A stretch of DNA of 45,313 bases from a virus, in the IMG/VR virus record IMGVR_UViG_3300045120_000167, positions 1-45,313 of that record; one strand, given 5' to 3'. The notes beneath the pieces are model-generated. The model was not told the DNA's origin, did not search any database, and saw only the letters and a program-made list of their open reading frames with translations. Positions within the stretch are counted from its first letter, which is position 1, and each line of letters begins with the position of its first letter. A program made the position numbers and the translations under genes. Shown here piece by piece: positions 37,947 to 42,704 of the stretch.

Positions 37947-38017
37947 CTGCGCGGGGGTGGGTCGATCAGGAGCCCAACGACCACATAGATAAGCATAACA
38001 ATGAAAAACATTTCCAT
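37943..38017 (-). CDS. 24-aa membrane peptide, last leftward gene
   Basis: ATG 38017 with AAGGAG 8 nt upstream; the peptide MEMFFIVMLIYVVVGLLIDP plus PPRS is one TM helix and a proline tail. Its stop TTA (37943-37945) interlocks with the TAA of the rightward operon. The strong SD supports translation. Function unknown; it belongs to the microprotein cluster up to 39371. Confidence 0.5.
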   Translation of the reverse strand: MEMFFIVMLIYVVVGLLIDPPPRS

Positions 38018-38034
38018 TTAAGCGGCTCCTTGGC

Positions 38035-38175
38035 TTAGTCGTCGATAAAAAATAGCCGCCCCGTGCCAACGATCACGAGAATCGAGCCAGCTAAGAACGC
38101 GCCCCAGTTGAGCAGGAGGGTATCGCTCGTCGCCAAGCTGACGGCGAGGAGGATGATGCCGATCCCGATGGTCAC
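38035..38175 (-). CDS. 46-aa two-TM membrane protein
   Basis: GTG 38175 overlaps the stop of the preceding gene (GTGA), with SD AAGGAC 5 nt upstream. An in-frame ATG at 38202 is the alternative. It has two hydrophobic stretches, IGIGIILLAVSLATSDTLLL and WGAFLAGSILVIVGTG, ending RLFFIDD. Function unknown; small phage membrane protein, possibly a holin-like or exclusion factor. Confidence 0.55.
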   Translation of the reverse strand: MTIGIGIILLAVSLATSDTLLLNWGAFLAGSILVIVGTGRLFFIDD

Positions 38176-38339
38176 GGCTTGTCCTTGAGAGCGGACAGCC
38201 ATTTCTCGGCGGCCAATTCGATCAGATCCCACTCCTCGGCGCTCCTATCGTCCCTATCGGCCGAAAGAGCTTCCTCCAATTCAGAGGGATCAAGCGGTTC
38301 GGAGATGATTTGCGCATCCCGGTCGTCATGTTCGCTCAT
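38172..38339 (-). CDS. 55-aa acidic helical protein
   Basis: ATG 38339 with SD GGGAG. The protein is acidic (MSEHDDRDAQIISEPLDPSE, LEEALSADRDDRSAEEWDLI) and ends ELAAEKWLSALKDKP. Its stop is coupled to the next membrane ORF. The acidic character could mimic DNA or bind a host protein, but nothing identifies a target. Confidence 0.55.
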   Translation of the reverse strand: MSEHDDRDAQIISEPLDPSELEEALSADRDDRSAEEWDLIELAAEKWLSALKDKP

Positions 38340-38350
38340 CCCCCGCTCCC

Positions 38351-38761
38351 TTACGGTCGCCCTGCGGCGGCGAGAGCGGCGCGGGCCTGTTTGATTACGG
38401 CCTTATATTCACTCAAATGCGACAAGGTTTCAGCCTCAGACACGCTGACGAAGTTTTCGTTCAGGGCAACGCTTTCCTCCAGCGCCGCCACAAGCTCGGC
38501 GTTGTCTTCCGCGATGTCTTCGTTGACCGTCTCGGCTAATGATCTTCGAGCAGAATGGGACACTGCTTCGTGCCGCGCTTCCTCCAGCGCCGCCACAAGC
38601 TCAGCGTTCTGGGAGCGGAGGGCGGCGAGTGTCTCTTTTTCATGCTCGGCGCAGACCTCGACAATCTGATAGATCAGCCGTTCAGTTGCCTGTGCAACGA
38701 TGCTGCCATCCGCAACCTTTTGAGCGAAGCGAACGACTTCTGGCGAACGCTCCCTGATCAT
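38351..38761 (-). CDS. Coiled-coil protein with internal duplication
   Basis: 136 aa from ATG 38761 (SD AGGGAG). RFAQKVADGSIVAQATERLI is followed by LAALRSQNAELVAALEEARH and IAEDNAELVAALEESVALNE, so NAELVAALEE occurs twice; the DNA repeat is 29/30 identical (38474-38503 and 38579-38608). It ends QARAALAAAGRP, matching the C-terminal RAALAAAG of the adjacent upstream gene. Function unknown. Confidence 0.6.
   Translation of the reverse strand: MIRERSPEVVRFAQKVADGSIVAQATERLIYQIVEVCAEHEKETLAALRSQNAELVAALEEARHEAVSHSARRSLAETVNEDIAEDNAELVAALEESVALNENFVSVSEAETLSHLSEYKAVIKQARAALAAAGRP
38359..38385. repeat. 27-nt direct repeat, copy A
   Basis: GCCCTGCGGCGGCGAGAGCG followed by GCGCGGG; copy B at 38781-38807 differs at one base. 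Each copy is the 3' end (encoding RAALAAAG) of two consecutive leftward genes. Confidence 0.7.
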
Positions 38762-39120
38762 TTCCCACTCCCTTGCGTATGCCCTGCGGCGGCGAGGGCG
38801 GCGCGGGCTTCGCAGCCTTGGCAATCGGAGAAGATGTGGTCGGCTTCGTCGCACCAACCCTCACACATATCCGTCTTAAATTTCTTCAGCGCCTCCTCCA
38901 GCTTCGCCACGCGGGTGCGCAGAGCGTCATGCTCGTCCATGGGGTGGGAAGCCAGCCAGTCCTCGATGTTGTCGCGCAGCGCGGTCTGCGACGGCGGGAT
39001 ATGGTTCTGCGCTAAAAGCAGAAGCTCGCGAACCGAGTACCCGCGAAGACGGCGGCTCTCTCGTTCCGCCGCTGTATCTGGAATATCCAGGTCAATTGTC
39101 GGCAATGATTTATTGCTCAT
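38758..39120 (-). CDS. Hypothetical helical protein with cysteine-rich C-terminus
   Basis: 120 aa from ATG 39120 (the frame extends to 39144 without support). MSNKSLPTIDLDIPDTAAER and YSVRELLLLAQNHIPPSQTA are followed by a helix ALRTRVAKLEEALKKFKTDM and a Cys cluster MCEGWCDEADHIFSDCQGCE (C-x3-C-x9-C-x2-C) that could bind a metal. Its last residues RAALAAAG resemble those of the next gene. No family recognised. Confidence 0.6.
   Translation of the reverse strand: MSNKSLPTIDLDIPDTAAERESRRLRGYSVRELLLLAQNHIPPSQTALRDNIEDWLASHPMDEHDALRTRVAKLEEALKKFKTDMCEGWCDEADHIFSDCQGCEARAALAAAGHTQGSGK
38781..38807. repeat. 27-nt direct repeat, copy B
   Basis: Differs from 38359-38385 by a single A/G change. 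The similar positions in two adjacent genes suggest a duplicated 3' module or recombination between them. Confidence 0.7.
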
Positions 39121-39121
39121 C

Positions 39122-39271
39122 TCAGTCGCTCGGTTCTTCTTCAAGGTCCCACTTGGTGAACAACATCAGGACGCCCAAAAAGACCAAAAACACAATGAAC
39201 GCGCCGCCGGCGATGACTTCCAAATTGTAGACCATCAGGTCCGCGAATAACTGCGTTTTCCCGTCAACCAT
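39122..39271 (-). CDS. 49-aa single-TM membrane protein
   Basis: ATG 39271 with a very strong SD (GGAGGTGAGGGG). MVDGKTQLFADLMVYNLEVI is followed by a TM segment AGGAFIVFLVFLGVLMLF and an acidic cytoplasmic tail TKWDLEEEPSD. Its stop is next to the start at 39120. Function unknown. Confidence 0.6.
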   Translation of the reverse strand: MVDGKTQLFADLMVYNLEVIAGGAFIVFLVFLGVLMLFTKWDLEEEPSD

Positions 39272-39275
39272 CCCC

Positions 39276-39371
39276 TCACCTCCAAAGATAAATCAAACCC
39301 GTCACGACCATGGCGGACGCTAGCCACGCCACGACGAAATAGAGAAGAACCCAACTGCCTTCGTAGGACAT
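39276..39371 (-). CDS. 31-aa single-TM membrane peptide
   Basis: ATG 39371; MSYEGSWVLLYFVVAWLASA then MVVTGLIYLWR. It is hydrophobic along its length, with an aromatic start and a basic end, a typical TM peptide. It lies 4 nt before the next ORF, whose SD overlaps its stop codon region. The SD is weak, so the start is less certain. Confidence 0.45.
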   Translation of the reverse strand: MSYEGSWVLLYFVVAWLASAMVVTGLIYLWR

Positions 39372-39434
39372 GCCCGTTTAGCACCCTGTTAACGTCCACC
39401 TGCTTAACGGAGCCGAAAACTCACGGACGATCAA

Positions 39435-39454
39435 AGCGGCGGGGGACCACCGCT
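39435..39454 (-). terminator. Stem-loop at the stop of the first PEP-CTERM gene
   Basis: On the minus strand AGCGGTGG-TCCC-CCGCCGCT, an 8-bp stem (one G-T pair) that begins within the stop codon, followed by TTGATCG. Likely a weak rho-independent terminator or mRNA 3' end. The rest of the 39372-39453 gap holds no clear gene. Confidence 0.55.
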
Positions 39455-40155
39455 CAGATTGCGAGACGCGCGCCGCGCTTCTTCCAGCCGACGAGGCCGA
39501 GCAAGCCAAAGCCTGCAATGAGCATTGCCCAGGTCGAGGGCTCCGGCACGCCGATCACCGGGTTGATGACCGCGCCGCCGGTGATCAAGCCAGCATTGGT
39601 GAAGCTGGTATCCACGCCGGTTCCCGACAAAGGCGCGATATAGGTGCCCTCGGCAAACGAGCCGATCACCTTGATGAAGTCCTTGCCGCTGAAGTTGACG
39701 TTCACCACCGCCTCATAGGCGTCGTAGGCCGTCGGCACGCTGGACAGCGTGGTGTCGGCGGTGATGCCCGCGCTGAAGTTGACGAAATTCATGGAGTTAT
39801 TGCACGCGGTGCAGCCGACGAAGGTGTAGAAATCCTTGGTCGGAGAGCCGGTGAAATCGCCAAGCGCGGTCAGCTCAACCGGCCCGGTGAACGTCTTCAC
39901 CGTCACTCCGCCGTAGAGGATGCTGGTAATCGTCGGCGCGACCTCGCCCTCTGGCACTGCGAAGAAAATGTCGAGCGGCCCTGCCTCGGCCTTGTTGGGG
40001 TTGTCGGCAATGTAGAACGTAGTGTTGCTGGGGATCGCGTTTGGATCGTTGCCGGGGCCGCCATCGCTGGTCGCGCCGACATGGTAGGCGGTGGTGTCGG
40101 CGTAAGCAGGCATGGCGAGCGCACATAACGCCGTGGCGAGAAGTAACTTTTTCAC
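39454..40155 (-). CDS. PEP-CTERM exported protein 1
   Basis: A 233-aa protein from GTG 40155 (SD AAGGA 8 nt upstream). A signal peptide (KKLLLATALCALAMPAYA|DT) is followed by a beta-rich domain of about 180 aa with a CTACNNS loop, and the C-terminus VPEPSTWAMLIAGFGLLGLV then GWKKRG: PEP motif, TM helix and basic cluster, the complete PEP-CTERM/exosortase sorting signal. Such proteins are anchored or secreted with exopolysaccharide in biofilm-forming bacteria. In a phage it is unexpected; no exosortase gene is in this window, so a host exosortase would be needed. Confidence 0.85.
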   Translation of the reverse strand: MKKLLLATALCALAMPAYADTTAYHVGATSDGGPGNDPNAIPSNTTFYIADNPNKAEAGPLDIFFAVPEGEVAPTITSILYGGVTVKTFTGPVELTALGDFTGSPTKDFYTFVGCTACNNSMNFVNFSAGITADTTLSSVPTAYDAYEAVVNVNFSGKDFIKVIGSFAEGTYIAPLSGTGVDTSFTNAGLITGGAVINPVIGVPEPSTWAMLIAGFGLLGLVGWKKRGARLAI

Positions 40156-40183
40156 GTTGTTTTTCCTTATTGTTGAAGCGGTC

Positions 40184-40218
40184 GGGGAGGGCACGCGATA
40201 GTCGTTCCGACCCTCCCC
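40184..40218. other. Stem-loop between the two PEP-CTERM genes
   Basis: GGGGAGGG (40184-40191) and CCCTCCCC (40211-40218) form an 8-bp GC-rich stem with a 19-nt loop in the 89-nt gap. It could terminate or stabilise the upstream message; there is no T-run on either side. Confidence 0.4.
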
Positions 40219-40244
40219 TTCCTTCCGCTATCCTTGAGGGGTTC

Positions 40245-40952
40245 TCAGACAGCGAAACGCGGTGTCCTACGCTTACGCAACCCCAGCGCGGCCAACAGGG
40301 CGAAGCCTCCTCCCATCATCACCCAGGTGGACGGCTCGGGAACGGCATTGGTCGCGTCCATAGAAATCGACTGGACCCCGACGAACGCTCCCGGCTGCAG
40401 GGTGAGCTGCAACGACTCGGCCATGCCGTAAGGGCCAAGCGCCGGGAAGAACACGTTGGCCGAGTTGCTGGAGAACGAGAACGGACCTGTAAGCAGGCCG
40501 CTGTCGAATGTTCCGCCGATCTGGGTTCCGACAACCGGGCCGGTGTTCGTCCCGTTCAACGAGTTGGCGGCATCCACGAAAAAAGTGCCGGTCAACTCAG
40601 CCTGCCCCGTGGCGATCAGCACGGTCGCGGAGGCGTTGAACAGATTGCTGGGACCGCCGTAACCGTTCGCCCCCGCGATGATGTCCAATGTCTGGACGGT
40701 CCCGGTGGTGTTGGAAATAAACAGGTTGCTCTCGGTCAGGCTGTTGTTGGGCGAGGTCAGCCGCGTCGCGCCGCTGGTGGTGATGGTGATCCCGCTCAGG
40801 CTCGAGCCCGAAAGCACCGCCGTGTCGGTGCCGATCGCCGTCTCCGAGCCGCCCGGATTGCTCGAGTTCCATAGCGTTAACGCGGTGTTGGCCGCGGCCG
40901 CGGGCGTCGCGAGCGCCGCCGCAAGAGCCGTCGTCAGTAGAAGTCTTTTCAT
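40245..40952 (-). CDS. PEP-CTERM exported protein 2
   Basis: A 235-aa protein from ATG 40952 (SD AAGGG). Signal peptide KRLLLTTALAAALATPAAA|ANT, then a beta-rich Ser/Thr/Asn-rich domain (SSLSGITITTSGATRLTSPN; LIATGQAELTGTFFVDAANS), and the C-terminal VPEPSTWVMMGGGFALLAAL then GLRKRRTPRF. It is similar in size and plan to the next gene but not visibly homologous outside the termini. The frame extends upstream to 41192 but only by shadowing the helicase gene. Together they form a two-gene secreted cassette. Confidence 0.85.
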   Translation of the reverse strand: MKRLLLTTALAAALATPAAAANTALTLWNSSNPGGSETAIGTDTAVLSGSSLSGITITTSGATRLTSPNNSLTESNLFISNTTGTVQTLDIIAGANGYGGPSNLFNASATVLIATGQAELTGTFFVDAANSLNGTNTGPVVGTQIGGTFDSGLLTGPFSFSSNSANVFFPALGPYGMAESLQLTLQPGAFVGVQSISMDATNAVPEPSTWVMMGGGFALLAALGLRKRRTPRFAV

Positions 40953-40992
40953 GGTCCCACCCTTTGGTTGTGGCCGAGAGAGTCGGCTCCGC

Positions 40993-42438
40993 TCATTCCA
41001 CGGGCTCCGCCACCCTGAGATTCTTGAATACGCTACGGTAAAGGGCATCTTTCCGCTGCAGCGCCTTAACAATGCGCCGGTCGAGATCGGACCCGGACAA
41101 ATCAATATACAGCACGGATTCGCCAGTTTGTCCACGCCTATGTATGCGGTCCTCGATCTGGTCCCTTGTGTCGGCCGAATAGCTGTTTTCAAAAAAGATC
41201 ATGGTCCGGCACTTGTCGTCCGGCTCGGGGCCGCCAAGCAGGGTATGGCCATATTTGGCTGCGTCACATTGCAGGAGAATGACCCGGCAGGCCGGATCTT
41301 CGTTGAAACGGGCCTTCTGTTCGGAGACCTCGTCGGGCTTCATGCCGCCGCCGATCCAGGCGCAATCGTACAGGAAGACCTCGCCGGTCTCGGGGTCAAT
41401 TCGATCGATGAGATTGCTCCGTAGAAAAGGCAGCATGGCCCGGTGCCGATAAACGACGCAGACCTTGCCGGCGACCTCCTCGTGAAGAAGCTGGAGCAGG
41501 AGGTTGAGCCGAGGATTGGCCAACGGCTTGACGAGTTCGTGGGCCTCGCCAGACTCATCATAGATAAATCCACATTGGATCTGCGCCAATTTGGCGTATT
41601 TGGCGATCGCGACCTCGACCGTGATCACGCCTTGCTCGATCTCGAGTAGGAACTGGTGTTCCATTTGGTTGTACTGACGCCGCTGTTCGGCCGACATCTC
41701 GTAGTCGCGGATGGTGTAATCCTTGCGCGGCAGCGCCGGCAGCCAATCCTTCTTCTTCGCCTGGAACACCGCCGGCCCCATGATCTGGGCGAGCTCGTCG
41801 ACGTTCTTCGCCGCCAAGACCTCCTTATCCTGCCAGCCGCCCATGACGCAGTAACGACCGCGAAAGGAGTAGAAATTGGCGCCAGGCAGGAGGCCGATGG
41901 CTCGCAGCTGCCCCCACAAGTCATGCGGACCCTGAGTTTGAGGCCGGCCGGTCAGGAGCCGCGTATACAGGCACGTCGGGGCGAGGATCTGCATCGCCTT
42001 GGTCTGGAGGCTCTTCGGCCCCTTGATCTGGATGCTCTCGTCGATGGCCAGGTACGCCTTGCCGCGCGCCGCCCAGATGCATAGCGTTCGAAGCACGCCG
42101 GACATGCGGGCGGCGTCATAGTTGATGATCAGAACCGCCGGCCCCTTGGGGTGGTAACCGAGACTAAGGAAAGCGAGGGCGTCGGCCTTTTTTGCCGACT
42201 GCCAGATATGGACGTCGAACCGAAAGCTATGTTTCTCGATTTCGTCGAGCCACCCATTTTTGAACGTGTTCGGGCAAACGACGACCATTCGATCGACGAC
42301 GCCGGTCGACTGCAGGAACGAGAACTCGGTCAGGGCGATCAGCGTCTTGCCGAGTCCTTGCTCCAGAAAGAAACCGACGCCTTTCTTTCCGCGGGCGAAG
42401 TCCAGCGCGGCGATCTGGACCGGGTCGAGGGCGCTCAT
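40993..42438 (-). CDS. SNF2-family DEAD/H-box helicase
   Basis: A 481-aa protein from ATG 42438 (ATGA overlap). Motif I EQGLGKT is at residues 26-32, motif II is AIDESIQIKG (D133-E134-S, a DEAH variant), motif III is LLTGRPQTQGPHDLWGQLRA, and motif VI is DQIEDRIHRRGQTGESVLYI. It is compact, with no fused nuclease; phages often encode such SWI2/SNF2-like ATPases in their DNA-metabolism block. It moves along or remodels double-stranded DNA, probably in recombination or repair with the VRR-NUC-like nuclease at 44309. Confidence 0.85.
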   Translation of the reverse strand: MSALDPVQIAALDFARGKKGVGFFLEQGLGKTLIALTEFSFLQSTGVVDRMVVVCPNTFKNGWLDEIEKHSFRFDVHIWQSAKKADALAFLSLGYHPKGPAVLIINYDAARMSGVLRTLCIWAARGKAYLAIDESIQIKGPKSLQTKAMQILAPTCLYTRLLTGRPQTQGPHDLWGQLRAIGLLPGANFYSFRGRYCVMGGWQDKEVLAAKNVDELAQIMGPAVFQAKKKDWLPALPRKDYTIRDYEMSAEQRRQYNQMEHQFLLEIEQGVITVEVAIAKYAKLAQIQCGFIYDESGEAHELVKPLANPRLNLLLQLLHEEVAGKVCVVYRHRAMLPFLRSNLIDRIDPETGEVFLYDCAWIGGGMKPDEVSEQKARFNEDPACRVILLQCDAAKYGHTLLGGPEPDDKCRTMIFFENSYSADTRDQIEDRIHRRGQTGESVLYIDLSGSDLDRRIVKALQRKDALYRSVFKNLRVAEPVE

Positions 42439-42704
42439 GACGCCTTGTACCTGACAGAAGGTCGAATGCCTTCGTTGAGCATGACAAAGGCTTCCGCCAC
42501 ACAATCCCAATCATTGGTTTTGATAGCGCATTCCAACGCCATCAAGGCTGTTCTGACCAGCATTTCCCGTGAAGTGATTCGATCGTCCTTGATCGGATCG
42601 TTGGGAGCGGAGAATCCTGCGCCGTGGTCTATTGCGTCGCGTCGCTGATTGGTGATTTCCGCCTTGGCGATGAGACGCCTGAATCGCGCATCGGGATTGC
42701 TCAT
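42435..42704 (-). CDS. Small helical hypothetical protein
   Basis: 89 aa (FRRLIAKAEITNQRRDAIDH; MLVRTALMALECAIKTNDWD). Both ends overlap neighbours by ATGA, and the gene precedes the SNF2 helicase directly. It has two cysteines but no zinc-binding spacing. It may assist the helicase; no family recognised. Confidence 0.65.
   Translation of the reverse strand: MSNPDARFRRLIAKAEITNQRRDAIDHGAGFSAPNDPIKDDRITSREMLVRTALMALECAIKTNDWDCVAEAFVMLNEGIRPSVRYKAS

Follow-up and report, generated by a model that had tools for sequence, protein, structure and literature searches.

The window, a whole virus record of 45,313 bases from IMG/VR (IMGVR_UViG_3300045120_000167, here G000) with genes for a portal, a terminase, a scaffold, an MCP-like protein, a primase and tail proteins, encodes two adjacent exported proteins with PEP-CTERM tags, and in this phage and its relatives such genes are optional, swappable cargo in a preferred slot of the genome. 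Both genes are on the minus strand. pepA (gene A, 40245..40952) starts with ATG and encodes 235 aa with a phage-specific passenger of what we call passenger family 1, while pepB (gene B, 39454..40155) starts with GTG and encodes 233 aa with a passenger that is replaced in relatives. The two proteins are built alike. A segment resembling a signal peptide comes first and a passenger of roughly 180 residues second, and the motif VPEPSTW is then followed by a TM helix and, at the very C-terminus, by a basic cluster. The putative signal peptides (MKRLLLTTALAAALATPAAAA in pepA, 40890..40952, minus strand; 40099..40155, minus strand, in pepB) were recognized by inspection of the translations from K/R, a hydrophobic core and AxA, a pattern also seen in the aligned homologs. 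The tag consists of VPEPSTW, a TM helix and RKRR in pepA (40248..40343, minus strand) and of VPEPSTWAM, a TM helix and KKR in pepB (39457..39549, minus strand).

By curated models pepA and pepB are PEP-CTERM proteins and new members of that class. Against cut-offs of 16 bits for TIGR02595 and 20.7 bits for PF07589, pepA scored 27.2 and 26.5 bits and pepB 24.0 and 31.9 bits. The two were the only TIGR02595 matches in the 45,313 bases, and the same model matched nothing in 14 control genomes. pepB is also a member of the PEPxxWA-CTERM subclass (NF035944, 37.1 bits with a cut-off of 35), to which pepA comes near but stays below the cut-off (26.6 bits). The original prediction of a tandem pair of PEP-CTERM proteins was confirmed at the positions given above, with tags over the cut-offs of both models. 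The same plan of signal peptide, passenger of low homology, PEP, TM helix and basic cluster is known from bacterial substrates of exosortase (EpsH) (TIGR02595, PF07589; PMC1569441). Bacteria, however, usually have many PEP genes together with the enzyme, whereas the genes described here are phage-encoded, lie in a fixed slot and belong to a genome without exosortase. Beyond the PEP-CTERM models no Pfam or NCBIfam family scored over its cut-off for either protein, and neither was matched in PHROGs or PADLOC. Assignment of the pepB passenger to NF038126 (FxDxF family) was rejected at 33.6 bits with a cut-off of 50.

The whole cargo slot (37947..40992) extends from the helicase gene to the convergent last structural gene. 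Its upstream border is an SNF2-type helicase (40993..42510, minus strand; PF00176 64 bits, phrog_62; true start uncertain), which closes the leftward replication operon. This match and the ORF list bear out the earlier placement of the pair on the minus strand between an SNF2 helicase and small ORFs. Relatives were picked by portal and by helicase, and their selection was therefore not biased toward PEP genes. Of 13 relatives picked by portal with records of 38 kb or more, 11 had a PF07589 match, or 12 if a PEA variant is counted (VPEAPTWAM in the PF07589-negative G032). The other negative, the close relative G017, has an empty slot in which the helicase abuts the structural gene, and some portal-selected relatives carry the PEP gene elsewhere in the genome. 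For helicase-selected loci at least 1.2 kb of downstream sequence was required. At helicase identities of about 66-67% or more, a PEP-CTERM gene followed in 24 of 28 loci (21 recognized by script, and L478, L479 and L483 by tblastn), a count that includes near-identical loci from different metagenomes separately, so that the effective number is below 28. In a more distant helicase clade the corresponding count was 0/8. The nearest isolate found, Ochrobactrum phage vB_OspP_OH (Wolominvirus, MT028492), has the same helicase gene order with 62% identity in the MCP, 53% in TerL and 41% in the helicase, but differs from G000 in that the slot after the helicase is empty, the same junction comprising about 126 nt and no gene. 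Because the slot is filled in most relatives yet empty in G017 and vB_OspP_OH, we regard the PEP-CTERM genes as optional and exchangeable cargo.

Homologs of gene A were detected in two scans in 13 other viral IMG/VR records from several metagenomes with 51-92% identity. Values of omega in the aligned homologs were 0.12-0.32 (pairwise counting method), and the gene A protein is therefore under purifying selection. Otherwise, PEP-CTERM genes have been described as chromosomal genes of bacteria (PMC1569441), and a misjoin of such genes to a phage contig was one explanation considered. The original prediction of phage cargo had named absence from other isolates combined with a chimeric join to host DNA as what would speak against it. 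Instead the same slot is occupied in many records from several metagenomes, empty sites are clean, the cassette is common to unrelated phages, and the bacterial genomes searched yielded no passenger A. Recurrence together with the clean empty sites ruled out an assembly chimera or host contamination, to which we attach next to no probability.

Some carriers of gene A have other virions, as indicated by a phrog_156 portal in G001, a phrog_332 head-tail adaptor in G007, and a tail sheath and baseplate wedge in G015. On the DNA level G000 and G001 were 82% identical over 915 bp at pepA, 83% at the pepB tail with the adjoining single-TM gene, and 77% at a two-TM gene. Between G000 and G007 the pepB tail and the single-TM gene were 84% identical. 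The pepB passenger in G001 and G007 was far more divergent than the pepB tail and the neighbouring gene. Judged from these alignments, it looks like the cassette has been traded between phages and the passenger swapped between constant ends. In L007 (10756-11544) a gene B homolog shifts frame near its end, either by assembly error or by decay, while PF07589 recognized an intact tag in another frame of that record (G005). L006, L007, L009 and L011 also encode a small exported protein (about 90-108 aa) with a CHRFSxWxYPxPQxC-like Cys/aromatic motif immediately upstream of their PEP genes.

Carriers were also searched for outside this group. In INPHARED, tblastn with pepA, pepB and another family-1 protein as queries gave no match even at loose E-values with the low-complexity filter on. 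The DNA pattern for PEPxTWAM matched at least 120 stretches in IMG/VR (L285-L363 examined among them), and 73 of the 80 loci examined have it as the tag at the C-terminus of an ORF that ends in hydrophobic and basic residues. PEP-CTERM genes may be widespread among viral contigs far outside this clade as well, though some of these contigs may be host DNA.

Passengers were diverse, with at least 8 families found before the same tag in phage PEP proteins by composition-corrected BLAST, while PEP, W and the basic cluster were conserved across these unrelated passengers. Gene A belongs to family 1, as does a further branch (profile A5) that profile comparison links to it (probability 97.9, E 5e-13). 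A cellular origin of passenger A was rejected, since no member of family 1 turned up in the bacterial genomes searched, in scans of limited depth. A peptide-pattern scan of genome contigs found no passenger A, profile A3 matched 0/297 Bradyrhizobium-family genomes, and profile A5 matched 0/297 of these genomes and 0/385 Alphaproteobacteria, all at limited depth and without positive control. Genome matches to passenger B were mostly to its tail.

The predicted model of pepA (pLDDT 73) was mainly beta, with a beta sandwich and a C-terminal helix at residues 207-226; the pepB model (pLDDT 59) was left out of the fold search. Structural matches of the pepA model included CBM61, CBM16, CBM22 and tailspike domains, but TM-scores stayed below 0.46, so that a carbohydrate-binding-like passenger is only a lead. 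This weak resemblance would suit a role in which the exported proteins loosen or restructure the EPS matrix or aggregates and allow progeny to escape, and bacterial PEP-CTERM proteins have been linked to EPS production and floc formation (PMC1569441; PMC9850573). Pfam found no enzyme domain, however, and the operon position suggests expression ahead of the late genes. We consider such envelope or EPS remodelling unlikely, if still worth keeping in mind.

Two small TM proteins move with the cassette, one of 49 aa with a single TM segment (39122..39271, minus strand; matches in G001 and G007) and one of 65 aa with two (38035..38232, minus strand; matches in G001, G005, G007 and G008). Both are holin-sized and accompany the PEP cassette across unrelated phages. 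The stretch 38336-39144 contains small ORFs that are duplicated and have NAELVAALEE-type repeats, as well as direct repeats in the DNA of 51 bp at 84% and 30 bp at 97%; a NAELVAALEE-like motif also occurs in an ORF of the PEP-less slot of L477.

Unimolecular spanins combine a signal peptide ending in a lipobox cysteine, a beta domain and a C-terminal TM segment. pepA and pepB share this overall topology, and with the adjoining small TM genes acting as holins they could serve in lysis or envelope disruption, the PEP motif being secondary. Yet the signal-peptide-like segment of pepA lacks a cysteine close to its end that could form a lipobox, and the cysteine in the pepB signal peptide sits within the hydrophobic core in a context that is not that of a lipobox. 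The slot is empty in close relatives, which makes the genes dispensable, and PEP, W and the basic cluster are kept whatever the passenger. A lysis function therefore appears improbable to us.

A GC-rich hairpin occupies the intergenic space between pepA and pepB (about 40184..40218, minus strand; window z -2.3) and is present again in relatives, where z-scores range from -0.9 to -3.2. Stem-loops, as noted in the original prediction, do exist, but they are not terminator-like and the z-score of this hairpin is only modest. Its equivalents in L003, L004, L007, L008 and L009 have changed arms and are directly followed by a purine-rich AAGGA-like stretch. No sigma-70 promoter was found in the region, with 0.8 expected by chance.

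In 37 phage records no exosortase was detected, and a host enzyme would therefore be needed, in line with what had been predicted. Exosortase was present in 7 of 8 searchable genomes with similar tags. In the Bradyrhizobium family it was found in 3 of 120 genomes. Two of these had a strong EpsH match and hold 14 and 22 PEP-CTERM genes, the third had a weaker match, and all others hold 0 or 1 PEP gene. In B. lablabi SZCCT0422 (G051) the exosortase is encoded on contig 8 at 53.4 kb, with PEP genes behind it at 54.9-70.8 kb. PEP and the basic cluster were 18 residues apart in 28 of 36 phage tags, and the same spacing held for most of the small number of Bradyrhizobium tags that were read, compared to 17 residues in 85 of 86 mostly Sphingomonadales tags. 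In this respect the phage tags match the Bradyrhizobium type and not the Sphingomonadales type. Relatives by portal and capsid include phages of Ochrobactrum, Sinorhizobium and Rhizobium, which together with the tag spacing points to Rhizobiales-type Alphaproteobacteria as candidate hosts. A host call by prophage was rejected with capsid matches in Alphaproteobacteria of at most about 40% identity (one fragment with 43%), and 21 records searched for tRNA genes as a host clue contained none.

In two Bradyrhizobium-family genomes without detected exosortase, lone PEP-CTERM genes (loci L436 and L440) have as neighbours ORFs that by eye are phage-like (RusA-like, D5-primase-like). As lone PEP-CTERM genes occur without detected exosortase, the tag may sometimes act merely as a membrane anchor. 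These two genomes would also fit a gene pair that is carried from host to host as fitness cargo and benefits the infected cell in a lysogenic or pseudolysogenic state, as would a cassette that is optional and moves between unrelated phages. No integrase or repressor, however, was seen among the window proteins scanned, which were part of the ORFs, and prophage-like capsid matches in Alphaproteobacteria were distant only. The phage looks lytic from its gene content, and because neither integrase nor repressor was seen it is likelier that the phage profits in the course of a lytic infection than that a lysogen does. We therefore think it rather unlikely that the genes serve the host.

Our favoured explanation, to which we would give not quite an even chance, is that pepA and pepB are exchangeable phage cargo sorted by a host exosortase for display in the envelope or EPS, where they shield the infected cell from competing phages or alter EPS adhesion. 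The proteins would be exported by Sec during infection, and the host's own exosortase would recognize and cut the PEP tag. Once cut, the proteins would be set free or become attached to the outer envelope or the exopolysaccharide, and the beta-rich passenger might bind or mask surface glycans or receptors. The infected cell could in this way be protected from competing phages (superinfection exclusion), or the adhesion of EPS could be changed. Since the proteins are exported, whereas virions assemble in the cytoplasm, they are not expected to be virion parts, and the position of the genes behind the replication genes argues for expression before lysis. Varied passengers on a constant tag would also fit an arms-race role. 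On the other side, a lytic cycle may leave little time for surface decoration, exosortase is rare in the family whose tags fit best, and superinfection exclusion is drawn from analogy with other phage-encoded envelope proteins. Taken together, we would rank surface masking and superinfection exclusion first, then a change of EPS, and then host benefit or lysis.

Among known systems, Llp of T5 and Cor of phi80 are likewise envelope proteins that are exported, are encoded by optional phage genes and alter the surface of the infected cell. They use lipoprotein or other targeting and have no exosortase tag. For hot-spring viruses, one study lists 13 TIGR03118 proteins acquired by horizontal transfer, whose C-terminus is putatively one for interaction with exosortase (PMC11003980); this is a different family, which appears there as a single entry among the transferred genes, and the passage on it presents no analysis of a slot, a cassette or sorting. 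In the open-access literature, to which the search was confined, we found no study of PEP-CTERM phage cargo and no paper that brings PEP-CTERM together with auxiliary metabolic genes. Papers that mention PEP-CTERM along with phages dealt, judged by titles and passages, with subjects other than phage-encoded proteins of this class. This suggests that use of the PEP-CTERM tag for phage cargo is new, within the open literature searched.

More broadly, and tentatively, we propose that soil-type phages may carry a re-armable surface-display module, in which phage-specific, beta-rich passengers on a constant tag are sorted by the host exosortase in the course of a lytic infection, swapped between podo- and myovirus-like phages and used on the host surface as an inter-phage weapon. 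If so, phages would exploit the bacterial exosortase sorting pathway, for which we found no viral clients described, and this would raise the question of what a phage gains from decorating the surface of a cell that is soon lysed. IMG/VR would already hold many candidate examples. Phage PEP-CTERM proteins would then provide short and independent substrates for exosortase biology, and their tag might serve as a clue to the pairing of phage and host.
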